From an uncultured Spirochaetaceae bacterium (GTDB lineage Bacteria; Spirochaetota; Spirochaetia; Sphaerochaetales; Sphaerochaetaceae), in assembly GCA_944389295.1 (NCBI GenBank), contig CALXLV010000011.1:1-64000 (forward strand): a stretch of DNA of 64,000 bases, written 5' to 3'. The notes beneath the pieces were generated by a model that saw nothing but the letters and a program-made list of their open reading frames with translations, searched no databases and was not told where the DNA came from. This document shows, piece after piece, positions 10,746 to 55,545 of the stretch. Position 1 is the first letter of the stretch. Every line of letters begins with the position of its first letter. The position numbers were made by a program, and so were the translations under genes.

Positions 10746-10768
10746 TTATCTTTCCGGAGGAGGCGGAT

Positions 10769-11656
10769 ATGGGAATGAGCGATGCGGCGAGGGGCAGTGA
10801 GCCTGTCCTCAGCATAGCGGTGCAGAAGAGCGGGAGGCTTTCAGAGAAAAGTCTGGAACTCATAAAGTCATGCGGCATAGATTTCTACGCGGACAGCAGG
10901 GTGCTCAAGGCATCCGCTTCGGGCTTTCCGCTGGATTTCCTCTTCGTCCGTGATGACGACATTCCGCAGTATGTCGCAGACGGTGTCGCGGATGCGGGAA
11001 TTGTGGGACGCAACGAGTACGATGAATCGGGGATAGAGCTTGAGGTCGTCAGGGATCTCAAATTCGCTTCATGCCGCCTCTCGATAGCCGTTCCCCACGG
11101 CTTTGACTACAAGGACCTTCACTCTCTGGAAGGAAAGAGGATAGCGACATCATATCCAAGGATACTCGGACGCATTCTGAAAGAGAACGGCGTGAATGCT
11201 GAGACGGTGGTCGTCTCCGGATCTGTTGAGATAACGGTGGAGGTGGGAATCGCGGATGCGATCGCAGACCTCGTCTCGACAGGCACGACGCTGAAGATGA
11301 ACGGACTTGAGGAGGCGGAGTGCATTTACCGCTCTTCCGCTGTGATGATCGCTCGTCCCGATATGAAGGAGGAGAAGAAAGCTGTGCTGACAAGGCTTCT
11401 TGAGCGCATCGATGCGGTGATGCTTGCCCGCCACAAGAAGTATATTCTCTTCAACCTTCCCGAGGACAAGCTCGACGATGCCGCGCGCGTTATCGGGGGA
11501 ATGAAGAGCCCTACGGTCACGCCGCTTATGGATGAAGGCTGGCTCTCCGTACAGTCCGCGGTCGACGAGAACAGGTTCTGGGCAGTATTCGAGGAGCTTA
11601 GGCTTCTCGGCGCCGAAGGCATCCTCGTGATGAACATCGAGAAGATGACGGAGTGA
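10769..11656 (+). CDS. hisG: ATP phosphoribosyltransferase, long form
   Basis: First enzyme of histidine synthesis, joining ATP and PRPP. The start is set at ATG 10769, where GGAGGAGG lies upstream; the longer frame would begin inside the terminator. The 295-residue protein is of the long HisG type, with catalytic domains (LSIAVQKSGRLSEKSLELIKSCG, and the PRPP loop VSGSVEITVEVGIADAIADLVSTGTTL at about 150-175) and a C-terminal ACT-like regulatory domain (about 212-295) that gives feedback inhibition by histidine. HisZ is therefore not needed. Confidence 0.95.
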   Translation: MGMSDAARGSEPVLSIAVQKSGRLSEKSLELIKSCGIDFYADSRVLKASASGFPLDFLFVRDDDIPQYVADGVADAGIVGRNEYDESGIELEVVRDLKFASCRLSIAVPHGFDYKDLHSLEGKRIATSYPRILGRILKENGVNAETVVVSGSVEITVEVGIADAIADLVSTGTTLKMNGLEEAECIYRSSAVMIARPDMKEEKKAVLTRLLERIDAVMLARHKKYILFNLPEDKLDDAARVIGGMKSPTVTPLMDEGWLSVQSAVDENRFWAVFEELRLLGAEGILVMNIEKMTE

Positions 11657-11658
11657 GT

Positions 11659-12945
11659 ATGTATCTGAATTTCCGCGATTACGACGAATCCCTTCTCAGC
11701 CGCCCCTCCGATGACAGTGCCGATATTGCCAGAGCCGTAGAGGAGGTGCTTGAGAATGTGAGGAAAAGGGGAGATGCGGCGCTCTTCGAGTACGCAGAGC
11801 GTTTCGATTCCTCCCGCCTCAATTCCCTCTATGTCTCAGATGAGGAGTTTGAGAAGGCGGAGGCGCTTGTCCCTGACTCTCTCAAAGCTGCCATAGACCA
11901 TGCGATGCGGAACATACGCACATTCCATCAGGCGCAGCTCCCTGCGGGAGAGGATGTAGTGACGGAGGCGGGCGTTAGGTGCTGGCGGAGGATAGTGCCG
12001 ATCCGCCGTGTGGGACTTTACATTCCCGGAGGCACCGCCCCTCTCTTCTCCACTGTCCTGATGCTTGCCGTCCCCGCAGTTGTCGCAGGATGCAGCGATA
12101 TCATTCTGGCAACTCCTGCCAGAAACGGAGTGATAAGCCCCGCGGTTCTCTATGCCGCTTCAGCTGCCGGTGTCAGGAGGGTGCTGAAAGTGGGCGGAGC
12201 GCAGGCCATTGCCGCATTCGCCTACGGCACTGAGAGCGTTGAGAAGCGCGACAAGATTTTCGGCCCGGGAAACAGATATGTCACGGAGGCGAAGAGAATC
12301 GTCTCATCGTCGGTTGCGATCGATATGCCCGCAGGACCTTCCGAGGTGATGGTCGTTATAGACAAGAGTTCCAATCCCGCGTTTGCCGCCGCAGACCTTC
12401 TCTCCCAGGCGGAGCACGGCAGGGACAGCCAGGCGATGCTGCTTATAAGAGCTGACAGCAGAGATGAGGCGGAGAGACTGTTCAGTGCAGTAGATGATGC
12501 CATTGGACGTGAGCTGGGAAAGATAGGGCGGCATGAGTACATGCTCCCGTCGCTCTCTCACTCCTATGCTTTCCCCGTCTATTCGGATGCGGAGCTTCTT
12601 GATGCCGTGAACAGCTACGCTCCGGAGCATCTGATAATCTCCACAGAGAACCCTGAAAGGATACTTGAGGGTGTGGAGAACGCGGGCTCGGTGTTCCTCG
12701 GCGCATATACGCCTGAATCCGCCGGAGATTATGCCTCAGGAACGAACCATACGCTTCCAACATCAGGGTGGGCCCGCTCATCATCAGGTGTGTCCGTGGA
12801 TTCTTTTATAAAGAAGATGACGGTGCAGTCCATAACGGAGGACGGGCTTTCCAGGCTCGGGGAGACGATAGAGTGCCTTGCCGAGGCAGAAGGCTTAATG
12901 GCTCACAGCTATGCCGTCAAGGTCAGGCTTGGAAAAGGAGAGTGA
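11659..12945 (+). CDS. hisD: Histidinol dehydrogenase
   Basis: Catalyses the last two oxidations to L-histidine using NAD and zinc. ATG 11659 is preferred because GGAG lies five bases upstream; a GTG at 11653 overlapping hisG is the alternative. The 428-residue protein contains the family patches GLYIPGGTAPLFSTVLMLAVPA, KIFGPGNRYVTEAKRIV, DLLSQAEHGRDSQ (Glu/His catalytic and metal residues) and GDYASGTNHTLPTSG near the C-terminus. Its stop overlaps the first possible start of hisC. Confidence 0.96.
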   Translation: MYLNFRDYDESLLSRPSDDSADIARAVEEVLENVRKRGDAALFEYAERFDSSRLNSLYVSDEEFEKAEALVPDSLKAAIDHAMRNIRTFHQAQLPAGEDVVTEAGVRCWRRIVPIRRVGLYIPGGTAPLFSTVLMLAVPAVVAGCSDIILATPARNGVISPAVLYAASAAGVRRVLKVGGAQAIAAFAYGTESVEKRDKIFGPGNRYVTEAKRIVSSSVAIDMPAGPSEVMVVIDKSSNPAFAAADLLSQAEHGRDSQAMLLIRADSRDEAERLFSAVDDAIGRELGKIGRHEYMLPSLSHSYAFPVYSDAELLDAVNSYAPEHLIISTENPERILEGVENAGSVFLGAYTPESAGDYASGTNHTLPTSGWARSSSGVSVDSFIKKMTVQSITEDGLSRLGETIECLAEAEGLMAHSYAVKVRLGKGE

Positions 12946-12947
12946 TG

Positions 12948-14021
12948 ATGGCGAAGTATGAAGAGGAACGCACAGAGGATGTCTCCTCGCTCCTGAATCC
13001 GTGGATAAGGGAGCTTGTGCCCTACAGCTCCGCGCGGAGCGAGTTCTCGGGAAAAGCCGACGTGCTTCTCGATGCCAATGAGAGCTGGGTCGGTGGAAAT
13101 GACGGCGTAAACCGCTATCCTGATCCCCTCTGCCGCGAGCTTAGGAAGGCGCTTGAGGAGAAGCTGGGGCTTCCTTATGAGATGACTGCGATAGGCAACG
13201 GCTCTGATGAGATCATAGACATGCTGATAAGGATGTTCTGCGCTCCCGGGAAGGACTCCGTGATGATAGAACGTCCGACTTACGGGACATATTCTGTCTT
13301 TGCCCGCACTTCATGCGTTGATGTTGTGGACGTTCCGCTCACACCGTCTCTTGATCTCGACGAGGAGGCCGTCATGAGGGCGATAGCGGAGAAAAAGCCC
13401 CGGATAGTATTCATCTGCACTCCGAATAATCCTACGGGAAGGGTTTATCCTCTGGACGCAGTTGAGCGCATTGCCGCTGCGAATCCGGGCATAACCGCCG
13501 TTGATGAGGCATATGGTGATTTCGCAGAGAATTTTCATTCAGCGGTCAATCTCATAGCAGCCAATCCGCGCGTTGTGGTTCTCCGCACGCTCTCGAAGGC
13601 GTTCGCCGCTGCCGGAGCCCGCATAGGCGTGCTTGTCGCCGATCCTGTGATTCAGAGGACATTCATGAAGGCCAAGCCGCCTTACAATGTGCCGCTTCTC
13701 TCGCAGAAAGCCGGGCTTGCCGCTGTTAATGACTATGAGAATGTGAAGAGGAGAGTGGAGGAGACAAGGAGGAGAAGAAAGGATTTCGCCTCATTTCTCT
13801 CATCTCTCCCGTTTGTCAGGGAGGTCTTTCCGTCGGAGGCGAACTTCGTGCTCTTCCGCACCGGCGATGCCGCTGCCCTTTACACCTGCCTGCTTGAGAA
13901 GGGCATAGTCGTAAGGAACAGATCATCAGATCCGATGCTTGAGAACACGCTCCGCGTGACGATAGGTTCGGAGGAGGAGATGGAGAAGCTCAGGGAGGCG
14001 CTTTGTGGCTGGAGAGAATAG
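12948..14021 (+). CDS. hisC: Histidinol-phosphate aminotransferase
   Basis: A PLP enzyme converting imidazole-acetol phosphate to histidinol phosphate. Two adjacent ATGs (12945, overlapping hisD's stop, and 12948) are possible; 12948 has the better seven-base distance from AAAAGGAG. Fold-type I features are present: LDANESWVGG substrate segment, ICTPNNPTGRVYP, VDEAYGDFAE and the PLP lysine in LRTLSKAFAAAGARIGVL. About 357 residues, normal for the family. A second, more distant paralogue lies at 47475-48566. Confidence 0.95.
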   Translation: MAKYEEERTEDVSSLLNPWIRELVPYSSARSEFSGKADVLLDANESWVGGNDGVNRYPDPLCRELRKALEEKLGLPYEMTAIGNGSDEIIDMLIRMFCAPGKDSVMIERPTYGTYSVFARTSCVDVVDVPLTPSLDLDEEAVMRAIAEKKPRIVFICTPNNPTGRVYPLDAVERIAAANPGITAVDEAYGDFAENFHSAVNLIAANPRVVVLRTLSKAFAAAGARIGVLVADPVIQRTFMKAKPPYNVPLLSQKAGLAAVNDYENVKRRVEETRRRRKDFASFLSSLPFVREVFPSEANFVLFRTGDAAALYTCLLEKGIVVRNRSSDPMLENTLRVTIGSEEEMEKLREALCGWRE

Positions 14022-15141
14022 GAAGAAGGTGCTCTTCATAGACCGTGACGGTGTGATCGTGAAAGAGTGCCAGGTGGACTCATATGAGCGCATAGAATAC
14101 ATCCCTCATGTGTTCGAGGCGCTTAGGGAGATATCGCGGCGCACGGATTATCTTCTTGTCATGGTCTCGAACCAGGACGGCGTCGGCACGCCGTCGTTTC
14201 CCTATGAGTCCTATAAGGGGCCTGCGGAGAGGATATTCTCAACGCTCCGCGGCGAGGGAATAGTATTCGATGATGTCAACATTGATTTCTCGCTTCCGGA
14301 GGACAACTGCCCGGGCAGGAAACCGCTTACCGGGATGATAGAGAGGTACCGCTCCGATGAGTATGACATGGAGCATTCGTTCATGATCGGGGACAGAGTG
14401 ACCGATATGATGCTTGCGAGGAACATGGGCTGCCGCGGCTTCCTCCTTGCTCCCGGTGATACAGAGATCCCTGACGATCTTCTTCCCTTTATAGCGCTCA
14501 GGGCTGACAGCTGGTGCGATATCGCGGCATACCTGATTGACGATGGCTCTCTCCGTCACAGAACGGCTGAGGTGAGACGGAAAACGAAGGAGACCGATAT
14601 CTCGCTTTCTGTCGATCTCGACGGAACCGGGGAGGGAAGAATCGAGACGGGAATAGGTTTCTTCGGCCATATGCTCGATCAGGTGGTCAGGCATTCACGC
14701 TGCGACATCACAGGACGTGCGGAGGGAGACCTTTTCGTCGATGAGCATCATACTGTCGAAGATACGGCGCTCGCTCTCGGGGAAGCTGTGCTTAAAGCTC
14801 TCGGCGACAAGCGCGGAATAGAGCGCTACGGTTATGAGATCGTGATGATGGATGATACCGTGGCGACAGCTGCCATAGATTTCTCCGGACGTCCGGAGTT
14901 CATCTGGGATGCCGAGTTCACGATGGAGACGATAGGTACGTTCCCCTCCGAGCTTGTGCGGCATTTCTTCCGCTCCTTCTCCGCCGCCGCGCAGTGCAAC
15001 CTCTATCTTTCCGCAACTAGGGGCGGAAACAGCCATCATACCGCAGAGGCTCTCTTCAAGGCGTTTGCGAGAGCTGTGCGCAAAGCTGTGAGGAGAATAC
15101 CGGGCGATACGAGGATCGCCAGTACGAAGGGGACGCTATGA
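14005..15141 (+). CDS. hisB: Bifunctional histidinol-phosphatase / imidazoleglycerol-phosphate dehydratase
   Basis: A fused enzyme for two steps. Residues 1-165 form a HAD phosphatase (LFIDRDGVIVKE nucleophile motif, VSNQDGVGT, NCPGRKPLTGM, GDRVTDMMLA). Residues 185-378 form the dehydratase with the repeated manganese-binding HHTVEDTALALGEA and HHTAEALFKAFARA. The zinc-site cysteines of the E. coli phosphatase loop are mostly absent: only one Cys before GRKP remains, as in some other fused HisB. GTG 14005 has GGGAGG six bases upstream and overlaps the hisC end. Confidence 0.94.
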   Translation: MAGENRKKVLFIDRDGVIVKECQVDSYERIEYIPHVFEALREISRRTDYLLVMVSNQDGVGTPSFPYESYKGPAERIFSTLRGEGIVFDDVNIDFSLPEDNCPGRKPLTGMIERYRSDEYDMEHSFMIGDRVTDMMLARNMGCRGFLLAPGDTEIPDDLLPFIALRADSWCDIAAYLIDDGSLRHRTAEVRRKTKETDISLSVDLDGTGEGRIETGIGFFGHMLDQVVRHSRCDITGRAEGDLFVDEHHTVEDTALALGEAVLKALGDKRGIERYGYEIVMMDDTVATAAIDFSGRPEFIWDAEFTMETIGTFPSELVRHFFRSFSAAAQCNLYLSATRGGNSHHTAEALFKAFARAVRKAVRRIPGDTRIASTKGTL

Positions 15142-15728
15142 TTGCGGTTATAAAATACAACGCGGGCAATATCCTCTCCGTGATGTGCGCTCTTGAGCGC
15201 CTCGGGGCGGAGGCTGTGCTCACGGATGATCCTGAGACGATAAAAAAGGCTGAGAGGGTTATCTTTCCCGGAGTGGGCGAGGCATCCACGGCGATGAGGT
15301 ATCTTGATGAGAGAGGTCTTTCCGATGTGATAAGAGGCCTTGACCAGCCGTTTCTCGGCATATGTCTTGGGATGCAGCTGATGTGCTCTTTCTCTGAGGA
15401 GGGAAACACGGAGTGCCTCGGTATCTTCCCCGAGCATGTCAGGCTCTTCCCAAAAGGACAAGGCTATAAGATTCCGCATGTGGGATGGAACACCGTGTCC
15501 CGGCTTTCAGGGCCTCTTTTCAGCGGAGTCCCCGATGAGAGCTATTTCTACTTCGTGCATTCGTATTTCGTTCCCCTTTCTTCCGATGCCTCTTCCGTGA
15601 CATCTTATGACGGCCTGGATTTCTCCGCCTCCCTCTCGCGCGGCAATTTCTACGGAGTGCAGTTCCATCCGGAGAAGAGCGGTGAGGCAGGGGAGATGAT
15701 ACTCCGCAATTTTCTCGAGAGGACATGA
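15138..15728 (+). CDS. hisH: Imidazole glycerol phosphate synthase, glutamine amidotransferase subunit
   Basis: Supplies ammonia from glutamine to HisF. The class I amidotransferase triad is visible: nucleophile Cys in FLGICLGMQLM (about residue 79) and the His and Glu in FHPEKSG near the C-terminus. At 196 residues it has normal length. The start overlaps hisB (ATGA), and hisA follows nine bases after the stop. Confidence 0.96.
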   Translation: MIAVIKYNAGNILSVMCALERLGAEAVLTDDPETIKKAERVIFPGVGEASTAMRYLDERGLSDVIRGLDQPFLGICLGMQLMCSFSEEGNTECLGIFPEHVRLFPKGQGYKIPHVGWNTVSRLSGPLFSGVPDESYFYFVHSYFVPLSSDASSVTSYDGLDFSASLSRGNFYGVQFHPEKSGEAGEMILRNFLERT

Positions 15729-15737
15729 GGAGGGAGC

Positions 15738-16481
15738 ATGAGGATAATACCTGCGATTGATCTGATCGGCGGACGGCCTGTGCGTCTCTCAGAGGGCGAT
15801 TATTACAGAAAGACAGCGTACAGTCTTACGGCTCTTGATGCTGCGAAGCGCTTTGAGGACGGAGGGCTGAGCTTTCTGCACCTCGTGGATCTCGATGCCG
15901 CAGGAGGAAACGGCATGGATAATCTCCGCGTTCTTGAGGAGATCGCATCGCACACTGCGCTGCATATCGACTTCGGCGGAGGCATAAGGAGCAGGGAGAG
16001 TTTTCTGAGAGCGCTCTCTGCTGGTGCTGAGAGGGTGAATGTCGGTTCTCTTGCCGTGCGTGATCCCGCGGCGGTGCTTGGCTGGGAGAAGGAGCGTCCC
16101 GGGAGCGTCATCCTCTCTGCGGATGCCCGGGACGGCTTTGTTGCCGTATCCGGATGGAAGGAGAATACGGACCTCGCTCTTGATGTGTTCATAAGAGGCT
16201 TTGCGGAGGGCGGCGTGAAGGCGGTTGCCGTCACCGACATAGCGAGAGACGGCATGCTCTCCGGTCCGTCGACAGAGCTTTACAGAAAACTCTGCGCAGC
16301 GTTTCCTGAGCTTGAGATCATCGCCTCAGGCGGTGTTTCCTCCGTCCGTGATCTTTATGAGCTTGCCGGTACAGGAGTTTCGGGAGCCATTGTCGGAAAG
16401 GCATACTACGAAGGCAGGGTGACGATAGAGGAGATGAAGGAGGCAGAGGATGCTTGCAAAGCGCATAATACCATGTCTTGA
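15738..16481 (+). CDS. hisA: ProFAR isomerase
   Basis: Phosphoribosylformimino-AICAR-phosphate isomerase, a (beta-alpha)8 barrel of 247 residues. Starts [22 protein letters not shown] with the first catalytic Asp, has the phosphate-binding [12 protein letters not shown] and [11 protein letters not shown] loops and the second catalytic Asp in [20 protein letters not shown] precedes the ATG. hisF starts inside its last 32 bases. Confidence 0.96.
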
Positions 16482-17211
16482 CGTGAAGGACGGCAGGACG
16501 GTCAAAGGAGTGAATTTCGTCTCCCTCCGTGATGCGGGGTCCGCGGTGGAGCTTGCCGGTTTCTACTCGTCATGCGGAGCCGATGAGCTTGTCTTTCTGG
16601 ATATAACGGCGACTGTAGAGAAGCGTGATACGATAGTCTCCCTTGTAAGGGAGGTCTCGCACACGATCTCGATTCCCTTCACGGTCGGAGGCGGGATAAG
16701 GGGAGAGGAGGATGTGGACAGAATCCTCTCCGCGGGGGCTGACAAGATTTCAGTTAACTCCGCCGCGATAAGGAATCCTGAGCTTCTGGAAAGGCTTTCG
16801 CAGCGCTTCGGTTCTCAGTGTGTGGTGCTCGCCCTCGATGCCCGTTCCAATCCTTCGATGCCGTCCGGATACGAGGCCGTGGCTGACGGAGGACGCACTC
16901 CGACTGGGCTGGATGCGCTGCAGTGGGCTTCTGAGGCAGAGGCGCGCGGAGCGGGGGAGATACTCCTTACATCGATGGACAAGGACGGGACGCGTGACGG
17001 CTTTGCTGTTGACTTAACCCGGATAATAAGCACTAATATTGATATTCCCGTTATAGCTTCGGGAGGTGCGGGGAAGATGGAGGATTTTCTCTCGGTCTTT
17101 ACCGCCGGAAAGGCGGACGCGGCGCTTGCGGCGTCGGTTTTCCACTTCCATGAGATAGATATACCGGAACTCAAGCGCTATCTCAGGGCATCGGGGATTC
17201 CTGTAAGATGA
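16450..17211 (+). CDS. hisF: Imidazole glycerol phosphate synthase, cyclase subunit
   Basis: The barrel partner of HisH, 253 residues, producing imidazole glycerol phosphate and AICAR. Family motifs are [19 protein letters not shown] at the N-terminus (catalytic Asp), [27 protein letters not shown] (second Asp) and [18 protein letters not shown] in the end of hisA serves as its ribosome site. It overlaps hisA by 32 bases. Confidence 0.96.
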
Positions 17212-17221
17212 GGGGATGGTT

Positions 17222-17830
17222 ATGACTATTGATTTTGCCAAAGGCGGCGGGCTTGTGCCTGCGGTGGTCCAGGATGCGGTCACCCGCAAGGTTCTGATGC
17301 TCGGTTATATGAATGAGGAGGCGTACAGGCTCACTCTCGACAGAGGACTTGTCACATTCTTCTCCCGTTCCCGAGGCAGAATCTGGACGAAGGGCGAGAC
17401 AAGCGGGAACTTCCTCCAGGTAAGGGAGATACTTGCGGACTGTGACGGCGATACGCTTCTTGTCAAGGCGATTCCCTCCGGTCCTGTATGCCACACCGGA
17501 GCCGACACATGCTTCGGAGAGGACAACCAGCCTACGGAGATCTCGTCTCCCGAGTTCCTTTTCTACCTTGAGTCCGTAATACGCGACAGGCGCACAAATC
17601 CCGTAGAGGGATCATACACGAACCATCTCTTCTCACGCGGACTGAACAAGATCGCGCAGAAGGTGGGTGAGGAGGCCGTGGAGCTTATCATAGAAGCCAA
17701 GGATGATGACAAGGATCTCTTCCTCGGCGAGGCTGCTGATCTGATGTACCATTTCCTCGTTCTTCTCTGCCAGAAGGATGCTACTCTTTCAGAGGTGATA
17801 GACGTCCTCAAGGACAGGCATTCACGCTGA
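17222..17830 (+). CDS. hisI: Bifunctional phosphoribosyl-AMP cyclohydrolase / phosphoribosyl-ATP pyrophosphatase
   Basis: A fusion of the second and third pathway steps (often hisIE). The cyclohydrolase domain (about 1-105) has VLMLGYMNEEAY, RGRIWTKGETSGN, CDGDTLL and the zinc ligands in CHTGADTCF. The pyrophosphatase domain (about 115-202) has NHLFSRGLNKIAQKVGEEAVELIIEAK and LGEAADLMYHFLVLL. ATG 17222 has GAGGGG six bases upstream; ATG 17216 is possible but too close. Its stop overlaps the next gene by one base. Confidence 0.95.
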   Translation: MTIDFAKGGGLVPAVVQDAVTRKVLMLGYMNEEAYRLTLDRGLVTFFSRSRGRIWTKGETSGNFLQVREILADCDGDTLLVKAIPSGPVCHTGADTCFGEDNQPTEISSPEFLFYLESVIRDRRTNPVEGSYTNHLFSRGLNKIAQKVGEEAVELIIEAKDDDKDLFLGEAADLMYHFLVLLCQKDATLSEVIDVLKDRHSR

Positions 17831-40484: not shown

Positions 40485-41438
40485 ATGAAGAGATTTCTGT
40501 TCTGCACAGCAGTTCTTCTCGCGGCGCTTTCAATGCTCGGCGCTGCGGATGTCTCCGTTGCGGCTCTCCGCGGGCCCACGTCCATCGGTATGGTGAAGCT
40601 GATGGAGGACAGCGCCGGCGGCGCGGAGGTAAACGGAAACACATATACATTCCAGCTTGAGGGCGCGGCCGATGCCGTCGTTCCCCTCATCGTGCGCGGC
40701 GATGTCGATATAGCCGCAATACCCGGCAACCTCGCATCTGTTCTGTACGGACGCACGGATGGCGCGATAGAGGTCATAGGAATCAACACGCTCGGTGTTC
40801 TCTATATCGTGGAGAACGGGGAGAGCATAACTTCTGTCGATGATCTCAGAGGAAGGACGATCTACTCTGCGGGAAAGGGTGCTACGCCTGAGTACGCGCT
40901 CCAGTATGTGCTCAGTTCAAGCGGTCTAGAAGTGGGCAAGGATGTGTTTATCGAGTGGAAGAGCGAGCATGCGGAGTGCGTGGCCGCGCTTAAAGCTGAC
41001 CCGGACGGAGTGGCGATGCTTCCGCAGCCGTTCGCGGCGACTGCGATGATGGCTGATCCTTTGATAAGGATTGCCCTCGATCTCAATGATCTCTGGGAGG
41101 CCGAGACAGGTACCGTGCTCATCACGGGCGTGACAGTTGCCAGAAAGGAGTTCATCGAATCTGAGCCGGAGGCGCTTGAGGCGTTCCTCGAGAGCTACGG
41201 CGAGTCTGTCAATTTCGTCAACTCGAACGTTCATGATGCCGCAGTCCTTGTCGGAAAGTTCGGAATAGTTCCTGAAAAGGCCGCCGAGGCAGCCATCCCT
41301 TACTGCAGCATCGTGCTGATAACAGGAGAGGAGATGAAGGACGCGCTTTCTTTCTACCTCGGAATACTCGCGGCGCAGAATCCGGCAAGTATCGGAGGAA
41401 CTCTCCCCGACGATGCGTTCTACTATCTGGGAAAGTAA
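40485..41438 (+). CDS. ABC transporter substrate-binding protein (SsuA/TauA/ThiY-like)
   Basis: The 317-residue protein has signal peptide MKRFLFCTAVLLAALSMLGA and the NMT1/TauA fold: VAALRGPTSIGMVKLMED, DVDIAAIPGNLASVLYG, LRGRTIYSAGKGATPEYALQYVL, GVAMLPQPFAATAMM. Ligands of this group include sulphonates, nitrate/cyanate and thiamin precursors; none can be chosen. GGAGG precedes the ATG. Its end overlaps the permease gene by 26 bases. Confidence 0.85.
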   Translation: MKRFLFCTAVLLAALSMLGAADVSVAALRGPTSIGMVKLMEDSAGGAEVNGNTYTFQLEGAADAVVPLIVRGDVDIAAIPGNLASVLYGRTDGAIEVIGINTLGVLYIVENGESITSVDDLRGRTIYSAGKGATPEYALQYVLSSSGLEVGKDVFIEWKSEHAECVAALKADPDGVAMLPQPFAATAMMADPLIRIALDLNDLWEAETGTVLITGVTVARKEFIESEPEALEAFLESYGESVNFVNSNVHDAAVLVGKFGIVPEKAAEAAIPYCSIVLITGEEMKDALSFYLGILAAQNPASIGGTLPDDAFYYLGK

Positions 41439-42171
41439 GAGAGCAAGGGCCGGAGCCGTACTCTTCTGGCTTCTTATATGGGAAATTGCTTCTCTCCTGA
41501 TCGGGGAGGAGCTTTTCCTGCCGTCGCCTCTCTCTGTGGCGGAGAGGCTGCTTTCCCTTTCCGTCACTTCCGTGTTCTGGTCGTCGGTGCTCTTCACGCT
41601 GCTGAGGATAATAGCGGGGTTCATTCTCTCCGCACTGACTGCAGCTGCCGCAGCGGCGCTCTCGTACAGGTTCCCGCTGTTCTCCCTCGCCGCAGACCCT
41701 TTCGTCAGGATAATAAGGACGACGCCCGTCGCATCCATAGTCATCCTCGTCCTTGTATGGGTCAGGAGCCGCAACCTCTCGGTGGTGATCTCATTCCTGA
41801 TGGTTTTCCCTGTGGTCTACACAGGTATCCTTGAAGGACTGAAAAGCACAGATCATGACCTTCTCGAGGCCGCCGCGGTCTACAGGATTACGCTTGTGAA
41901 GCGGATAAGGTATATCTTCATCCCTTCTCTCACACCTTACATCGAGAGCGCTCTCCGCACATCGCTCGGACTGAGCTGGAAGAGCGGCATAGCTGCCGAG
42001 GTGATAGGTCTTCCCGACGGTTCGATAGGTGAGAGGCTCTATGAGGCGAAGATATACCTCTCCACTCCCGACCTCTTCGCATGGACCGTCGTCGTGATAA
42101 TCCTCGCATTCATCTTCGAGCGCACATTCCTGGCTCTGGCGCGGCTTCTGGTAAAAGGAGCTGTCTCATGA
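41413..42171 (+). CDS. ABC transporter permease (SsuC/TauC-like)
   Basis: A 252-residue membrane protein with six helices and the EAA loop LEAAAVYRITLVKRIRYIFIPSLTPY. It begins before the stop of the binding-protein gene and ends overlapping the ATPase gene (ATGA), so the three are one unit. Confidence 0.88.
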   Translation: MRSTIWESKRARAGAVLFWLLIWEIASLLIGEELFLPSPLSVAERLLSLSVTSVFWSSVLFTLLRIIAGFILSALTAAAAAALSYRFPLFSLAADPFVRIIRTTPVASIVILVLVWVRSRNLSVVISFLMVFPVVYTGILEGLKSTDHDLLEAAAVYRITLVKRIRYIFIPSLTPYIESALRTSLGLSWKSGIAAEVIGLPDGSIGERLYEAKIYLSTPDLFAWTVVVIILAFIFERTFLALARLLVKGAVS

Positions 42172-42725
42172 TCGCACGCATAGAGGTGAAGAGATTCGGG
42201 GAGAAGGTCATCTTCTCCAATGCCGTTTTCAATGTGCCGTCTCTTTCCCATACCGCCATACTCGGTCCGTCGGGCAGGGGAAAGACGACGCTGATGCGCA
42301 TCCTCTCCGGCCTCGACAGGGAGTGGAAAGGCAGCATTGAGGATGGGCCGGAGCATCCTCTGGTGCTCTTTCAGGAGGACAGACTGACAGGGAACATTCC
42401 TGCGCTTTCGAATCTCAGGGCTGTCTCCGATGATGCCGCCGCAATAAGAAAGGTGCTCTCCGATACAGGTCTTTCAGGGGAGGAGAAGAAGAGTGTGCAT
42501 GAGTTCTCGGGAGGAATGAGGAGGCGTCTTGCGATAGCGCGCATCCTCCTTCTTGACGGCGATTTTCTCTTCCTCGACGAGCCGTTCAGAGGGCTCGACG
42601 GCCCGATGAAGGCGCATATCGCATCTCTTCTGCTTGACCATGCCGCGGGGCGCACGCTGGTCTTCATAACCCATGATGAGGATGATCTTTCCCTTCTCGG
42701 GGCTGACAGCATCATAGAGCTCTGA
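42168..42725 (+). CDS. Short ABC transporter ATPase
   Basis: At 185 residues this is shorter than SsuB/TauB proteins (about 250). Walker A GPSGRGKTT, the signature FSGGMRRRLAIARIL, Walker B FLFLDEPFRGLD and the switch His in VFITHDEDD are all present. The Q-loop region (LVLFQEDRL) is kept. The missing length is mostly the loop between the Q-loop and the signature and the C-terminal tail. It probably powers the adjacent permease. Confidence 0.85.
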   Translation: MIARIEVKRFGEKVIFSNAVFNVPSLSHTAILGPSGRGKTTLMRILSGLDREWKGSIEDGPEHPLVLFQEDRLTGNIPALSNLRAVSDDAAAIRKVLSDTGLSGEEKKSVHEFSGGMRRRLAIARILLLDGDFLFLDEPFRGLDGPMKAHIASLLLDHAAGRTLVFITHDEDDLSLLGADSIIEL

Positions 42726-44772: not shown

Positions 44773-44780
44773 AATCTGAA

Positions 44781-44977: not shown

Positions 44978-45021
44978 ATGTAAAATCCTTTACATATCTC
45001 ATTCTTTGATTTGCATATAGT
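44978..45021 (+). promoter_or_regulatory. Crp/Fnr-type operator and class II promoter of the NhaC-type operon
   Basis: The 18-bp perfect palindrome ATGTAAAATCCTTTACAT (44978-44995) is centred at 44986.5. A -10 box TATAGT lies at 45016-45021, putting the start site at about 45028, so the operator is centred at -41.5, the classical position for a Crp/Fnr activator. It takes the place of a -35 box. The same palindrome type occurs at 48623-48640. Confidence 0.7.
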
Positions 45022-45031
45022 ACTTCCAACA

Positions 45032-45075
45032 AAGAGCAAAGGTGCCATCAGGTTGTCGCCTTTGCTCTTTTTTTT
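45032..45075 (+). terminator. Attenuator-like terminator just before the NhaC-type gene
   Basis: AAGAGCAAAGG (45032-45042) and CCTTTGCTCTT (45059-45069) form a perfect 11-bp stem, extendable inward by two pairs, with eight Ts at 45068-45075. The ATG of the gene is only 15 bases further and the predicted transcription start only a few bases before the stem, so the short leader consists almost wholly of a terminator. Confidence 0.7.
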
Positions 45076-45089
45076 CGAGGAGCTGCTGT

Positions 45090-46577
45090 ATGGAAGAAAA
45101 GAAGGATGCAACTTTGCTTGAGTTTTACGGATCGAACTTTCTCTCGCTGATTCCGCTTGCCGTGTTCGTGGTATTCTGTGTTCTGTGCTTCGTAGTATTC
45201 AAGGACTTCGCAATGGAATCTGTATGCATGGGAGGTTTCGTATCGCTCGTGATCGGAAGCCTCTTTGCCAGGAAATCGTCCGCATACTGGGATGCTGTCG
45301 TGAAGGGGATGTCATCCGAGATGATGAACACCCTTGCCCTGATCCTTTTTATCGTCGGCATGTTCGGAAAGATGATGACGCGTGCGGGTGTGGCGGAAGG
45401 ATTTGTCTGGCTTGGCGATCTTATGGGACTTCATGGTGGTCTTTTTACCGCATTTTCATTTATCGTCGCGTGCATAATGTCAACGGCCACAGGAACATCA
45501 ATCGGCACGCTCTTTTCCGCATTTCCGATTCTCTATCCGTCCGGAATACTTCTTGGTGCTGACCCTGTGCTTCTTGCCGGAGCAATACTCGGCGGTGCGA
45601 TTTTCGGTGATAATGTCGCTCCAGTTTCAGACACGACAATAGCATCCGCCTCGTCACAGACATATAAATACAGAAAGGGATGCGCGGATATAGGGGGCGT
45701 TGTTGCTACAAGAATGAAGTATGCGCTTGTCGCGGCAGCTTTCGCACTTATCTGCTTTGCGGTATTCGGAGGTGCCGAAGGCGGTGAACCGAGCGTAGCT
45801 GCAGATGAGATTCTTGCGCACTACAGCGATCCCAGAGGACTTATAATGCTCATTCCTGTGGTGATTCTGCTTATAATTGCTGTTAAGACGCAGAACATCT
45901 TCTTGGCATCGACATGGGGAATGATCTCCGGCACATTGATCGGCCTTGTTTCCGGTGCGCTGGTTCCTGCGGATGTGATGGGTCTTGAAGGAGGTGCTCT
46001 CTCCGGATTTCCGATTGACGGCATCAAGAATACGATAGGAACAGTCGGATACCTCTATGCAGTCGCAGGTGTCATCGGGGTTCTTAATGCAAGCGGAACT
46101 ATGGAGAAGATAATCAGTGCTCTTATAAACAGCCGTCTCAACAGAACCGCTGTCGGTTCGGAGATAATAATGGGACTGGGCATAATGATAACATCGATCT
46201 GTCTTGGTTCTGCAAACGGACCGGCCATAATCATGTTCGGACCTATTGCCGACAGAATCGGCAAGTCCAAGGACCTGCATCCTTACAGAAGAGCCAATCT
46301 CCTTGATGGTTTCGCCAGCACTCTGCCTGTAATTGTCCCTGTCACAAGCTCGTTCATATTCATTACTCTGTCATGTGTGGAGAGCGCTGCATCCGAGTAT
46401 GCCTTTGTGAGTATGATAAGTCCTGTACAGGTTGCGGGAGCGACGCTTCATTGTATCTTCCTTTTCTTCGTACTGGCATTTGCTGTAGCTACAGGGTGGG
46501 GCAGAAAGTATGAAGGTCCGGATGGTAAACTTTCCAGAACTCCGTATCTGGAGAGGGAAGAGGAGAAGGCGTGCTGA
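45090..46577 (+). CDS. NhaC-family Na+/H+ antiporter-like transporter
   Basis: A 495-residue membrane protein with about 11-12 helices. Family patches: FIVACIMSTATGTSIGTLFSAFPILYPSG, GAILGGAIFGDNVAPVSDTTIASASSQ. NhaC relatives include Na+/H+ exchangers and Na+-coupled carriers of organic acids such as MleN (malate/lactate). The linked aldolase and aminotransferase suggest an amino or oxo acid as substrate here; this is inference. CGAGGAG precedes the ATG. Its stop overlaps the aldolase start. Confidence 0.85.
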   Translation: MEEKKDATLLEFYGSNFLSLIPLAVFVVFCVLCFVVFKDFAMESVCMGGFVSLVIGSLFARKSSAYWDAVVKGMSSEMMNTLALILFIVGMFGKMMTRAGVAEGFVWLGDLMGLHGGLFTAFSFIVACIMSTATGTSIGTLFSAFPILYPSGILLGADPVLLAGAILGGAIFGDNVAPVSDTTIASASSQTYKYRKGCADIGGVVATRMKYALVAAAFALICFAVFGGAEGGEPSVAADEILAHYSDPRGLIMLIPVVILLIIAVKTQNIFLASTWGMISGTLIGLVSGALVPADVMGLEGGALSGFPIDGIKNTIGTVGYLYAVAGVIGVLNASGTMEKIISALINSRLNRTAVGSEIIMGLGIMITSICLGSANGPAIIMFGPIADRIGKSKDLHPYRRANLLDGFASTLPVIVPVTSSFIFITLSCVESAASEYAFVSMISPVQVAGATLHCIFLFFVLAFAVATGWGRKYEGPDGKLSRTPYLEREEEKAC

Positions 46578-47344
46578 TGAAACTTATAGATAAAATAAGA
46601 AATGGCGAGAGAACGGCAGGTACTTTCCTGAACCTCGGTTCGGCAGTGGCGGCGGAGTGCGCCGCCATTGCCGGGTTTGATTACGTCATTATCGATCTTG
46701 AGCACAGTCAATTCGGTTTTCCGGAGGCTGCTGATATGATAAAGACGGCGGCACTGAGAGGTATGCCTGTACTTGTACGGGTTCCGGAAATAAGCCGTGC
46801 ATGGATACTGAAGCTCCTTGATGCCGGGGCGGGGGGAATTGTCGTTCCCGGTCTCAAGACAAAAGAGGAGGCGGAGAGGCTTGTGCAGCTGTCGAAATAT
46901 CCGGGTCTTGGCAGCAGGGGATTCTGTCCTACGCGTGTCTGTGACTTCGGATATGGCGATGCGTTCCGGGATGGAATACTGAGCTATGCGGCAAAGACAA
47001 ACAGGGACACAATGATGATACCTCAGTGTGAGACCGTGGAATGCCTTGAGTCGATAGAGGAGATTGTCTCGATGGAAGGAATAGACGGTATATTCATCGG
47101 CCCATTTGACCTCTCGCTCGCTCTCGGAATACCTGCTGAATTCAGCAGAAAGGAATTCACAGATGCCATAGAGCATATTAAAGATGTCTGCATAAAGCAC
47201 GGCAAGCCTGTCTTTATTTTCGCTCCTGATCAGTCTACTGCAGCAAAACGCATGGAGGAAGGATATACGAGCGTCACCATCAGCGCCGACCTGAATATTC
47301 TCATCGATTCATTCAGGGCAGTGACTGCTGCGCTGAAAAAATGA
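46577..47344 (+). CDS. HpcH/HpaI-type class II aldolase
   Basis: The 255-residue barrel protein has FDYVIIDLEHSQFGF, metal-binding and substrate residues in VRVPEISRAWILKLLDAGAGGIVVPGL, and IPQCETVECLESIEEIVSMEGIDGIFIGPFDLSLALG, as in the family of 2-oxo-acid aldolases (4-hydroxy-2-oxoheptanedioate, 2-dehydro-3-deoxyglucarate, 2-keto-3-deoxy-rhamnonate). They cleave 4-hydroxy-2-oxo acids to pyruvate plus an aldehyde. ATG 46577 overlaps the transporter stop; a GTG at 46571 is also in frame. Confidence 0.88.
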   Translation: MKLIDKIRNGERTAGTFLNLGSAVAAECAAIAGFDYVIIDLEHSQFGFPEAADMIKTAALRGMPVLVRVPEISRAWILKLLDAGAGGIVVPGLKTKEEAERLVQLSKYPGLGSRGFCPTRVCDFGYGDAFRDGILSYAAKTNRDTMMIPQCETVECLESIEEIVSMEGIDGIFIGPFDLSLALGIPAEFSRKEFTDAIEHIKDVCIKHGKPVFIFAPDQSTAAKRMEEGYTSVTISADLNILIDSFRAVTAALKK

Positions 47345-47380
47345 TCAGCAGTTGCCTATATTCGGGTTTTTCATAATCTC

Positions 47381-47410
47381 TCTCCCGTCGCAGGGCGGGA
47401 GAACTTTATT
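47381..47410 (+). terminator. Terminator of the transporter-aldolase operon
   Basis: TCTCCCG (47381-47387) and CGGGAGA (47396-47402) with an eight-base loop, then ACTTTATT. Confidence 0.6.
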
Positions 47411-47424
47411 CACATTTGCTCATT

Positions 47425-47460
47425 AACAGAAAACGGCAGGCCTCAGAGGAGACCTGCCGT
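47425..47460 (-). terminator. Terminator of the aminotransferase gene
   Basis: Bottom strand stem ACGGCAGG/CCTGCCGT (47460-47453 with 47440-47433) followed by TTTTCTG. Confidence 0.7.
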
Positions 47461-47474
47461 CCAAGCCGAGCAGA

Positions 47475-48566
47475 TCAGCTTCTTTCCTTCAGGATTTTCT
47501 TCATCGCGGCAACAGCTTTCCTGCACTCATCGAGTGTACCGATGGAAATTCTTGCTTCAGGGAAATCACCGCGTATCATGACGCCGAATGAAGCGAGCTC
47601 GGCAGCGAACTCGCGCGGCGGCATCGTCGGACGGAAGAAGATGAAGTTTGAAGAGGACGGCCATACTCTGAATCCCATCCCTTCCATCTCTTTCACAAGG
47701 TAATCTCTGGATTCCTTGTTCTTCTTTATGCTCATGTTTATGAAATCCTCATCATCGAGCGCGGCCTCGGCGGCCTTCACCCCAGCTCTGTTGCAGCAGA
47801 AGCCCGTTGCGGTGATCTGCAGATAGGAGATGATCTCCCTGTTTGAGATGATGTATCCGATTCTGCATCCGGCCATGCCGTAGAGTTTTGAGAATGTCTT
47901 GACGACTATCAGGTTCACATTGTCTGCAACTTCGCTGATCATGCTCCTGTAATTTCTGTCCTCGACGAAATCAAGATATGCCTCGTCGATAGCAAGCACG
48001 ACATGCTCAGGAAGCGAGTGAAGGAACTCTATGAGGTCCTTATCGCTGCATACAGTGCCTGTGGGGTTGTTCGGATTGCACAGGAATACAAGGCGCGTCC
48101 TGTCGTTGATGGCTTCTGAGATTTTTCTGAAATCAGGGGTGTATGTGTCATCAGACATCGGGACTTCCACGAGAGTACCTCTGTTCTTCTTCACTATGTT
48201 GTAGTAGTTGGGGTAGGTGGGAGGGGTGACAATTACCTCTGTTTCTTCTCTGACGAAAACCTCTCCTATGAATCCCAGAGCTGATGTGGCCCCCTGTGTG
48301 ACCATAACATTCTCTGGTTTCAGGCCATGCTTTGAAGCAAGTTTCTCAACCAGGGATGCTGCCCTGATATCAGGATAGCGGTTGGAAATATCGGCCTGTC
48401 TTTTGATCTCCGCCGCAGCAAGAGGGGAGATTCCGAACGGATTCTCATTCTTGTTCAGCTGCAGTATTTCAGTCACTTCCGGACGCAGCGGCTTCTTCGG
48501 TTCACCGAGGCCAAAGTTGTAAGGCGGGGCTTCCTTGACAAAATCACTTACAAGATTCTTTACCAT
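47475..48566 (-). CDS. PLP-dependent class I/II aminotransferase (HisC-like)
   Basis: The 363-residue protein has the HisC/CobD-like layout: LNKNENPFGISPLA, VTQGATSALGFIGEV, LCNPNNPTGTV, AIDEAYLDF and the PLP lysine in VVKTFSKLYGMAGCRIGY. A complete HisC already exists in the his operon, so this paralogue probably acts on another amino or oxo acid linked to the neighbouring transporter and aldolase. AGGAGG lies eight bases before the ATG. It shares the Crp-type palindrome with the divergent regulator. Confidence 0.85.
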   Translation of the reverse strand: MVKNLVSDFVKEAPPYNFGLGEPKKPLRPEVTEILQLNKNENPFGISPLAAAEIKRQADISNRYPDIRAASLVEKLASKHGLKPENVMVTQGATSALGFIGEVFVREETEVIVTPPTYPNYYNIVKKNRGTLVEVPMSDDTYTPDFRKISEAINDRTRLVFLCNPNNPTGTVCSDKDLIEFLHSLPEHVVLAIDEAYLDFVEDRNYRSMISEVADNVNLIVVKTFSKLYGMAGCRIGYIISNREIISYLQITATGFCCNRAGVKAAEAALDDEDFINMSIKKNKESRDYLVKEMEGMGFRVWPSSSNFIFFRPTMPPREFAAELASFGVMIRGDFPEARISIGTLDECRKAVAAMKKILKERS

Positions 48567-48596
48567 ATCAGGTTCCTCCTCTGAATAGATGCTGTG

Positions 48597-48640
48597 AGTA
48601 TATCCATCGGAATGGAAAAGATATGTAAAGCACTTTACTG
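48597..48640 (-). promoter_or_regulatory. Crp/Fnr-type operator and class II promoter of the aminotransferase gene
   Basis: ATGTAAAGCACTTTACTG (48623-48640) has the same ATGTAAA-N4-TTTAC plan as the site at 44978. Bottom strand TATACT (48602-48597) is the -10; the start site is then about 48590, and the operator centre (48631.5) is at -41.5, identical to the other promoter. Confidence 0.65.
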
Positions 48641-48758
48641 CTCTCTGCTGTTTCTGGCAGGTACTTCAGGCGGCGGTATTTTACTGAATTCCTTTGCGGC
48701 AGCTTCTTTTTCTTGGACAAAGCTCATGTCATTAACTATATTTCCAGAAGAGATCGGT

Positions 48759-49478
48759 ATGACAGAAGAAGAGAAACCACAGATCCTGCAGTATTCTCCA
48801 TGGATTGACGGTGATGAGAATACTCTTTTAAGGTACTTTGCGGATTGTCAGTGCCGTACTTTCAGCAAAGGCTATGTATTCTACTCTCAGGAGGAGAATT
48901 CAGATTATGTCTATCTGATTCACAGAGGACGTGTCTGCCTGTCTCTCGACAATATCAACGGGGATGCAAAGGATATCTTCATCGCTGACAAGGGATTCAT
49001 ATTCGGAAAGCTCTCTTTTTTCGACCCTCTTCCCAACAGCTGCTGTGCGATAGTCGTCTCTGAAAGCGCAGAGGTCATACTGATCCCCAAAAGCCGTTTT
49101 CAGGAGCTTCTTGAGAGGGACATCACATTCTGCAGAGAGATTCTTGCGATGATGTCCAAGACGATACGCACCCTCATCTCCGAGATAAAGCTGATGTCTT
49201 TCAGCAGTTCAAAAGCAAAGGTGAACTATACATTCTACCATCTCATCAATCAGTACTCCACGAAGGAGGGGGACTCCTATAAAATCAACATGACATTCAC
49301 GCATCAGGAGATCGGGGAGCTGGTAGGTCTATCGCGCGTATCTGTGTCTTATATAATCTCACGCATGGTCAAGGACGGCATCATCGAGAAGCGAAACGGC
49401 TATTACTATGTCAAAGACAAAGAAGCGATCTACCGCTCTGTAGCCGACGATGAGATTGCTGATTTCTCGTCATCCTGA
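48759..49478 (+). CDS. Crp/Fnr-family transcription regulator
   Basis: The 239-residue protein (start MTEEEKPQIL; earlier in-frame starts run through the operator and look non-coding) has a cyclic-nucleotide-binding-like beta-roll (about 25-130: FSKGYVFYSQEENSDYVYLIHRGRVCLSL ... FIFGKLSFFD), a long dimer helix, and a C-terminal winged HTH (MTFTHQEIGELVGLSRVSVSYIISRM). The recognition helix SRVSVSYII differs from Crp's SRETVGRIL, in line with a different operator. Cysteines 30 and 32 and a Cys pair near 97 exist but do not form the Fnr pattern. Likely controls the two ATGTAAA sites. Confidence 0.85.
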   Translation: MTEEEKPQILQYSPWIDGDENTLLRYFADCQCRTFSKGYVFYSQEENSDYVYLIHRGRVCLSLDNINGDAKDIFIADKGFIFGKLSFFDPLPNSCCAIVVSESAEVILIPKSRFQELLERDITFCREILAMMSKTIRTLISEIKLMSFSSSKAKVNYTFYHLINQYSTKEGDSYKINMTFTHQEIGELVGLSRVSVSYIISRMVKDGIIEKRNGYYYVKDKEAIYRSVADDEIADFSSS

Positions 49479-53721: not shown

Positions 53722-55545
53722 ATGATAAACGCGCTTGTCTGCATTCCCTATCTCGAGCTGAAAGAACCTTATGAGAGATGCATAAGGCGGTATTCCGACA
53801 AGGACATCTCCTTCGAGGTCCGCCATATCATAGGCATCCATGAGGCGCTGGAGAATGCCGTCATGGGCAAGGATATCGTCGTGGCCAGGGGAATCACGGC
53901 CGCGACTGTCGCGAAGGAGTGGCCGAGCAAGCATCTTATAGAGATAGAGCTTACAGGCTACGATGTCCTCCATGCGATAATAGCCTGCCGCGAGAAGTAC
54001 AAATCAAAGAACATCGCGATAATCTACGCAGAGACGCTGAGATGCGATGAGCGCATGCTCTCTGATCTCACGGGAATACCTGTGACTGTGAAGAAGGTCT
54101 CCGACGAGATAGAGACAAGGGCCGCCATACTGGACTACGCTGCGGCGGGTGTGGATACCTTCGTCGTCGGACGCACCGGCGCCGAAATCTGCGACAAGAA
54201 CGGACTTGCGTATGTCTCAGTAGATGTCGGCAAGGAGGCGATAGAGCGCTCCGTGCTCGATGCCATCACCGCTGCAAGGACGATGGAGTACGAGAGGTCG
54301 AAGAGCGTTCTGATACGCCAGCTCCTCAATGACAACGCGGACGGCGAGATCGCGGTGGACACAGAGGGCAATATAGTCGAGGAGAACCGCATGGCCCGCG
54401 AGCTTGTCGGCTCAAGCATGGAGAACATTCCCGAGTGGAGGGAGGCTCTTGCAAGCGAGACGGGCTTTGAGAGAGTGAGGATGTTCAACAATCTTCCCTG
54501 CATTGTCCGCTACGTCCCCGTATTCCAGTCCGGAAAGCCGATCGGCGTGAACATCGTCATCCAGAACAGCGAAAGGCTGCGCGAGTCAGACTCGAAGATA
54601 AGACGGGAACTGAAGGAGCGCGGGTTCGTTGCGAGATACTCATTCTCGGATATAAAGGGCGAGAGCGGGAAACTCCTTGAGATGAAGGAGAAGGCGAAGA
54701 AGTTCTCTCAGGTGCTCTCTTCAGTGCTTATAACAGGGGAGACGGGTACTGGAAAGGAGCTCTTTGCCCACAGCATACACTCGGCAAGCCCCCGCGCGTG
54801 GGAGCCGTTTGTCGCCGTCAACTGCGCGACGCTTCCCGGCTCTCTTCTTGAGTCGGAGCTTTTCGGCTATGTAGAAGGCGCTTTCTCCGGCGCAGTCAGG
54901 GGCGGCAAGGCGGGACTTTTCGAGATTGCCCACAAGGGGACCATCTTCCTCGATGAGATAGGGGAGATACCTCTTCCTGTGCAGTCGAAGCTGCTGAGAG
55001 TGCTGCAGGAGAGCGAGATAAGGAGAGTCGGGGATACGCGCGTCCGTCATGTCGATGTGAGGATCATCGCGGCGACGAACGTCGATATGAAAGCCAAGGT
55101 GCGCGAAGGCCTCTTCCGCTCCGATCTCTACTACAGGCTGAGCGTTCTAGACCTTCATCTTGCGCCGCTCAGGGAGAGGGGAAACGACATCCTCCTCCTT
55201 GCCGATATGTTCCTCGAGCGCTATGCATCCCGCTCAGGGCGCCGCAAGCCTGTGCTCTCGCGTGATGCGGAGAACATACTCATGTCATATTCATGGCCGG
55301 GAAACATCAGGGAACTGAGGAATATCTGCGAGAAGATAATAGTGCTCTCCGATGGGGATACGATCTCGGGGTGCGATCTTGACGGCATCCTCTCTGCAGG
55401 AAGCGATGAGAAGGAGGGCAGGGCTCTTTCGATAGAGGAGCTTGCGTCATCGGGAATCGTCAAGAAGGGCGCACTTGCCGATGCGCTGGGAATCAGCCGC
55501 ACGACGCTCTGGAGAAGGATGAAAGAGAGCAATGTGAAACATTAA
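53722..55545 (+). CDS. PrpR-type sigma-54-dependent activator
   Basis: The 607-residue protein has an N-terminal PrpR_N sensor domain (about 5-185: [40 protein letters not shown]), a PAS-like region (about 205-275), and a sigma-54 AAA+ domain with Walker A GETGTGKE (about 339) and Walker [11 protein letters not shown]. The sigma-54 loop reads GAFSGA (386-391) instead of GAFTGA. A Fis HTH ends the protein ([19 protein letters not shown]). PrpR_N domains sense small organic acids or their CoA products. Palindromes overlapping its stop codon and a sigma-54 promoter downstream make tctBAC its probable target. Confidence 0.92.

Follow-up and report, generated by a model that had tools for sequence, protein, structure and literature searches.

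A predicted Crp/Fnr-controlled cassette for amino-acid import, transamination and cleavage in an uncultured Spirochaetaceae bacterium

A cassette of four genes, encoding a transporter, an aldolase, an aminotransferase and a candidate regulator, is found in the genome of an uncultured Spirochaetaceae bacterium (assembly GCA_944389295.1). It lies in a window of 64,000 nucleotides, the whole stretch of DNA analysed here (contig CALXLV010000011.1, positions 1 to 64,000 of the forward strand), and occupies 44978 to 49478, from the first palindrome to the last base of the regulator gene. The first gene (45090..46577, + strand) encodes an NhaC-family transporter of 495 amino acids (PF03553), as judged from family models and from comparison with the related Lachnospiraceae locus L072 described below. 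The next encodes an HpcH/HpaI-family aldolase (46577..47344, + strand); its longest open reading frame begins at GTG 46571, and its likely start, ATG 46577, overlaps the transporter stop codon. These two genes look like one operon. A terminator-like hairpin follows the aldolase gene (47381..47402, + strand), one of nine such sites in the scanned stretch against 4.4 in shuffles. Family models assign the third gene (47475..48566, − strand) to the HisC-like class I/II aminotransferases. It is divergent from the fourth (48759..49478, + strand), which by family models and an alignment of homologues encodes a Crp/Fnr-family regulator of 239 amino acids. The longest frame of the regulator gene begins at GTG 48594, but this start is over-extended; homologues place it at ATG 48759, and thus the second palindrome falls within the gap between the aminotransferase and regulator genes.

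Two palindromes are the predicted regulator sites. Site 1, ATGTAAAATCCTTTACAT (44978..44995), precedes the transporter-aldolase operon, and site 2, ATGTAAAGCACTTTACTG (48623..48640), precedes the aminotransferase gene and adjoins the regulator gene, an arrangement claimed by an earlier sequence-only reading and borne out by the coordinates. Both are exact matches to ATGTAAA-N4-TTTAC, with the dyad of site 2 broken by its outer right bases. The observed match was reached by 0 of 20000 dinucleotide shuffles of the upstream region for site 1 and by 9 of 20000 for site 2. In class II activation by CRP, the site is centred at −41.5. If +1 is placed 41.5 bp away from the centre of the site, the position due to the −10 element (the class II slot) is filled exactly by TATAGT (5/6; 45016..45021, + strand; predicted +1 at 45028) for the transporter and by TATACT (5/6; 48602-48597, − strand; predicted +1 at 48590) for the aminotransferase. 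The same reading had put both palindromes at −41.5 with these two hexamers, which stands, the starts themselves being predicted. Facing the regulator gene, the slot of site 2 is GTACTT (1/6), which is no −10 element. A site with at most two mismatches combined with a slot hexamer of at least 4/6 occurs twice in the window, against a mean of 0.017 and a maximum of 1 in 60 dinucleotide shuffles; the motif alone, at up to two mismatches on both strands, matches eight times against 1.31 expected. A scan of the whole 1.98 Mb genome, proposed earlier as a check, finds the exact motif at two places only, both in the cassette. One-mismatch places elsewhere number seven, and the total is 10 rows against 5 for the reversed control.

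A close relative of the cassette was found by scanning genome contigs with the regulator alignment. Of the four loci obtained, three are distant (21-26% identity to the regulator) and one, L072, is close; it belongs to the Lachnospiraceae metagenome-assembled genome RUG11155, of about 3 Mb. Identities to the window proteins are 75% for the transporter, 74% for the aminotransferase and 64% each for the aldolase and the regulator. The gene order differs, the aldolase gene lying about 4 kb off with other genes between. Palindromes stand at 9876 (no mismatch), 10708 (one) and 16740 (one), before the transporter and regulator genes (one shared divergent site), the aminotransferase gene and the aldolase gene; in dinucleotide shuffles of the respective upstream regions, matches this good arise 0, 45 and 13 times in 20000. 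The hexamers in the exact slots are TATTGT (4/6) for the transporter, TATCAT (5/6) for the regulator, TATAAA (5/6) for the aminotransferase and TATAAT (6/6) for the aldolase. With up to two mismatches allowed, this locus holds six site-plus-hexamer combinations against 0.073 per shuffle. The only exact palindrome of its genome is the transporter/regulator site, whereas at up to one mismatch there are 22 places, three of them in the cassette, against 18 for the control. When 19 near-sites outside the cassettes were examined (seven in the window genome and 12 in the L072 genome, with seven further ones of the latter left out), a slot hexamer of at least 4/6 was found in none of 38 slots. One palindrome with two mismatches, at L072:1696-1711, lies about 130 bp before a flavoprotein-like frame of 662 amino acids beginning at 1839, which is a possible extra member of the regulon.

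Two further genomes came from a search of the L072 family (397 genomes, aminotransferase as query, E <= 1e-90), which gave three matches: the L072 genome itself, G685 (locus L148) and G1034 (locus L149). In L148, a divergent regulator gene (product 30% identical) and an exact palindrome are followed by the transporter, aminotransferase and aldolase genes in a row. In L149, where the regulator is 39% identical to that of the window, the transporter and aminotransferase genes are divergent and have one site each (no mismatch and one mismatch), with hexamers of 4/6 each. Two more sites (hexamers 4/6 and 5/6) precede a shell operon and an acetate–CoA-ligase-like operon; the shell operon includes the aldolase gene, and its site is oriented towards it. 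Four of the five L149 sites with up to two mismatches have a slot hexamer of at least 4/6, against 0.003 per shuffle, the fifth (2971) having none of that grade. An exact palindrome arises in 3 and 1 of 10000 shuffles of the L148 and L149 gaps, respectively.

In L072 and L149 the sites recur with class II geometry ahead of the corresponding genes, and the comparison thus supports a regulon well, as far as predicted promoters can tell. Several observations weigh against it. In L148 the slot reads AATTAC (3/6), which is not a −10 element, so that this locus breaks the spacing rule; with TATAGT, the best hexamer there, the palindrome would lie at −74.5. In L072, a better hexamer for the transporter (TGTAAT, 5/6) sits 3 bp off the slot, a slot hexamer at the aldolase site (TGTGAT, 4/6) points away from the aldolase gene, and outside the cassette the two-mismatch site at 1696 is paired with a slot hexamer (TTTTAT, 4/6); site and hexamer together are therefore not wholly exclusive to the cassette. 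The sites before the shell and ligase-like operons of L149 carry two mismatches each. Since the regulators of L148 and L149 and the aldolase of L149 (34% identical to that of the window) have low identities, they are not clearly the same proteins. A distant regulator in G262 (L087, 28%) lies near two NhaC-like genes (L087:7334-11442) with no adjoining palindrome at up to two mismatches, the nearest being at 10567, inside a transporter gene, and 13591. Finally, a single-sequence search of the window's own genome with the regulator (E <= 1e-3) returned the query only, distant Crp/Fnr proteins not being searched for. Conservation in relatives, on which the sequence-only reading had staked the regulon, is thus largely found: the palindromes recur in L072, L149 and L148, and the geometry before the same genes is kept in the first two but lost in L148.

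The enzymes can be placed in families. The aldolase scores 109.4 bits against PF03328 (cut-off 25), which assigns it to the HpcH/HpaI superfamily, and the stretches RGFCPTR and PQCET are common to its own group. The aminotransferase reaches 268.5 of the 276.55 bits required by TIGR01141. It was rejected as the HisC of the histidine operon, where an above-cut-off copy (298.7) sits at 13002-14003. That operon (window 10727-17830) comprises hisG, D, C, B, H, A, F and IE by reading, hisC also by model, and its hisB looks like a HAD-IGPD fusion. The transporter matches PF03553 at 45.8 bits (cut-off 23) and scores 56.2 of the 370 bits of the NhaC equivalog TIGR00931. It has no PDB match up to E 1, and its structure model (mean pLDDT 35) is too poor for use. 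The NhaC family also transports ions and organic acids, so that an amino acid is a presumed substrate only, which counts against the pathway proposed here.

In L149 the cassette genes stand beside a microcompartment locus (L149:3981-9502 and L149:848-2987) with similar palindromes before its operons. Its shell genes are EutN/CcmL and three BMC-domain genes. The aldolase of this locus has 343 amino acids, and its N-terminal part resembles, by eye, that of the neighbouring amidohydrolase; these shared parts are possible targeting segments. The amidohydrolase is dihydropyrimidinase/allantoinase-like, under every cut-off shown. An acetate–CoA ligase alpha-like protein scores below its cut-off (391 of 567 bits) and has an ATP-grasp partner, and subunits of a 2-oxoacid oxidoreductase are present, the gamma subunit above the PorC/KorC cut-off. 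No aldehyde dehydrogenase was found among the L149 proteins scanned and 10 other open frames of the contig. The link to microcompartments, which is new here, extends to other homologues of the aminotransferase. P0170 (59%) continues into a BMC-domain protein; read in another frame, the end of P0158 matches the BMC gene of P0170 at 46 of 48 residues, while ten shuffled controls reach at most 18. A shell gene therefore seems to follow the aminotransferase gene there too. P0188, like P0170 and P0158 an aminotransferase homologue (59-60% for the three), ends in the same letters, and P0168 (60%) continues instead into a PALP-type sequence. A BMC gene was found in neither the window genome (87% complete) nor the L072 genome, so that their cassette represents a form without a shell.

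We consider it probable that the cassette is activated by a Crp/Fnr protein and serves to import an amino acid, transaminate it and cleave it to pyruvate and an aldehyde, as far as gene families and promoter predictions indicate. A ligand-bound regulator would activate the transporter-aldolase operon and the aminotransferase gene from two sites of the TGTAAA-N4-TTTACA type. The transporter would import the amino acid, the aminotransferase would convert it to a 4-hydroxy-2-oxo acid, and the aldolase would split this by retro-aldol cleavage into pyruvate and the aldehyde. The substrate would presumably be a 4-hydroxy amino acid or a homoserine-like compound, its class and the direction of the pathway being suggested by the families. 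This order of uptake, transamination and cleavage, put forward in the sequence-only reading, fits the families, and the L149 set beside a microcompartment, a pyruvate-type oxidoreductase and an acetate–CoA-ligase-like gene adds support. A wider proposal, which is tentative and in our estimate has somewhat less than an even chance of being right, is that the cassette represents an undescribed mobile regulon for amino-acid cleavage in two forms, one naked (window, L072 and L148) and one with a microcompartment (L149). In the latter, the shell with its encapsulated HpcH-type aldolase and amidohydrolase, pyruvate oxidation and an ATP-yielding acyl-CoA synthetase would all be turned on from the same palindromes. 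An imported gamma-hydroxy (or related) amino acid would be transaminated, split inside the shell and fermented to acetate with a gain of ATP, without the aldehyde dehydrogenase normal in metabolosomes.

The same regulon might also work in the reverse direction, the aldolase joining pyruvate and an aldehyde, the aminotransferase making a gamma-hydroxy amino acid and the transporter exporting or exchanging it. Both enzyme classes are reversible, NhaC-family members are often exchangers, as is generally known, and the cassette of the window holds no catabolic follow-up enzyme. On the other hand, the palindromes of L149 precede an acetate–CoA-ligase-like operon with 2-oxoacid oxidoreductase subunits as well as a shell operon, a pattern that is degradative and energy-yielding, and reverse flow is accordingly judged unlikely, although it is the strongest competitor of the cleavage pathway.

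A hairpin with a U-tract, a predicted intrinsic terminator found by folding, lies between the predicted +1 and the start of the transporter gene (45031..45075, + strand). Its stem (45031-45070, +4 to +43) folds at −22.5 kcal/mol with a z of about −3. Similar hairpins with a U-tract are found in L072 (9831-9800, +12 to +43; −15.8 kcal/mol) and L148 (7943-7987, stem 7943-7982; −25.6 kcal/mol for the folded stretch), the start in L148 being uncertain, and none in the transporter leader of L149. This terminator-like element in three of the four genomes is new here. In L072 and L148 the preceding gene runs in the opposite direction, and so the hairpin probably does not act for a gene upstream of it. 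Four folded leaders of aminotransferase and aldolase genes have no stem with a U-tract; that of the L149 aminotransferase folds at −19.0 without one. A search of L001 and L072 against Rfam (E <= 1) gave four matches; none reaches its gathering score, and none falls on a leader. The hairpin would end part of the transporter transcripts, and thus may provide a second layer of control besides activation. That attenuation is the main control, the palindromes serving only basal or global control, is improbable: a strong hairpin with a U-tract at this position in three genomes, and its confinement to transporter leaders among those folded, would suit it, but the window stem has three bases on its 5' side, leaving no room for a leader peptide or an upstream antiterminator, and L149 lacks the hairpin while the palindromes are present in all four genomes.

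The regulator has the layout of the Crp/Fnr family, with a cNMP-binding fold (PF00027, 48.0 bits) and a Crp-type helix-turn-helix domain (PF13545, 45.3 bits), both above cut-off. An inverted repeat at class II spacing before target genes, a trait of this family, is predicted in the window, L072 and L149, while L148 lacks the spacing. A database of 5.8 billion contains 15 proteins, that of the window included, that match the regulator at E <= 1e-3, and there is no match in viral contigs. In alignment with E. coli CRP, its cAMP contacts E72, R82, S83, T127 and S128 are replaced by K, S, C, L and I. The recognition helix reads SRVSVSN, with Y in the window protein; R180 of CRP is kept there, whereas E181 and R185 are changed to V and Y. 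The conserved cysteine set of FNR type was not found, a single cysteine (C95) being invariant across the 15 homologues. With both the cAMP contacts and the cysteine set missing, the regulator likely senses neither cAMP nor redox state but some other small ligand. By analogy with CprK, this ligand might be the substrate of the pathway or its oxo acid, which serves as a working idea.

The adjacency of the regulator gene to site 2 and the co-occurrence of regulator and enzymes suggest that the neighbouring regulator binds the palindromes. Another Crp/Fnr protein of the cell might do so instead, as part of a wider network, since many proteins of this family are known to regulate globally, and adjacency is not binding; distant paralogues in the window genome were, moreover, not sought with a family model. 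In that genome, however, the query matches only itself at E <= 1e-3, the exact sites occur only in the cassette, and regulator and enzymes co-occur elsewhere. Binding by another protein is hence hardly likely, a shade less so even than attenuation as the main control. The idea that the palindromes are there by chance and the gene set is unrelated can practically be dismissed: one-mismatch matches elsewhere are near the control level, but in L072 and L149 the sites recur at the exact spacing, which contradicts it.

The cassette was likely gained laterally, which is the simplest reading of lower GC, a transporter missing from related genomes and four relatives with a cassette-free rpsD interval. 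GC is 0.486 in 44978-49478, below both the window as a whole (0.531) and the two flanks of 10 kb (0.546 and 0.543). At E <= 1e-80 the transporter is found in its own genome only among 139 family genomes (missing from 138 others), and at E <= 1e-100 the aminotransferase likewise among 394 genomes of the class. Among 19 relative loci around the downstream lipoprotein gene, eight carry rpsD and none a cassette gene. In G008, G018, G012 and G013, rpsD faces the lipoprotein gene, the arrangement seen in the window, yet no cassette separates the two, and in G008 homology ends at window position 44777 and resumes at 49550, so that the segment 44778..49549 is absent from its rpsD-lipoprotein interval. 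Co-occurrence was judged by an identical size of the longest contig in two homologue lists, which suggests but does not prove location on the same contig. Among the matches listed, there are 10 such cases for aldolase and aminotransferase (one being the pair of the window), four for regulator and aminotransferase and two for regulator and aldolase; controls with sizes shifted by 1-50 have means of 0.2, 0.07 and 0.03 and maxima of 2, 1 and 1. It seems, then, that aldolase and aminotransferase are often found as a pair, including cases without a matched regulator (e.g., the Treponema sp. rows with a longest contig of 21887). Several candidates for the same cassette were rejected: G036 (L071) has an aldolase of 37% and a regulator of 26% on one contig with different neighbours, and L084-L086, with same-class aldolases of 40-44%, have no transporter or regulator match alongside and an aminotransferase match of 24-25% in two of the three. 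In plasmids, no aminotransferase was found at E <= 1e-60; aldolases of Hymenobacter plasmids (44-47%) lie among unrelated genes (surroundings of two of the three). Elsewhere in the window, an ABC-type uptake set (binding protein, permease and ATPase by reading) precedes ychF (40485-42725), and a PrpR_N protein with a sigma-54 activator part is encoded at 53722-55545 (352 of 499 bits for PrpR).

The cassette is a defined candidate regulon that can be tested: it supplies a motif, a likely regulator, promoter predictions of single-base precision and enzymes that can be assayed. The hairpin ahead of the transporter gene points to control of the transporter in two layers, and the cassette adds a Crp/Fnr member likely to sense something besides cAMP or redox state. 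The tie to microcompartments suggests which class of substrate might be handled by a shell locus for which the available literature excerpts give no function. The gene set is described in none of the excerpts of PMC3638464, PMC4207490, PMC8217296 and PMC6620236, and it counts as undescribed as far as searches confined to open-licence literature go.

Known systems share some features with the cassette. E. coli CRP has the same domain layout and, by prediction, the same class II activation at −41.5, whereas its cAMP contacts differ. NtcA sites (GTA-N8-TAC) have half-sites at the same spacing as the cassette sites, although the regulator is far under the NtcA model cut-off (25.6 of 244.95 bits). 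CprK, described in excerpts of PMC3638464 as the regulator of reductive dehalogenation in Desulfitobacterium, senses a substrate of its pathway and binds TTAAT-N4-ATTAA. It belongs to the same family and is the best PDB match of the helix-turn-helix part alone (3.7e-07), while the full-length profile best matches 4byy, 4cyd and 3r6s (about 4e-18), which are other Crp/Fnr proteins. Both systems have inverted halves around N4, but the half-site of the cassette is TGTAAA/TTTACA, and the target genes are unrelated. The structures of HpaI, GarL and RhmA (YfaU) align over most of the length of the cassette aldolase, which is nevertheless far under each equivalog cut-off (138/369, 130/407 and 105/441 bits). 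Among microcompartments, the loci of unknown function (BUF) and the predicted Xau and Aut types, as far as the available excerpts describe them, share with L149 the EutN/CcmL and BMC shell genes, an amidohydrolase and the absence of an aldehyde dehydrogenase among the proteins scanned, and the Aut type has an aminotransferase (PMC4207490, PMC8217296, PMC6620236). L149 differs from these types, so described, in combining the shell with an HpcH-type aldolase, an NhaC-type transporter and a Crp/Fnr-type regulator.

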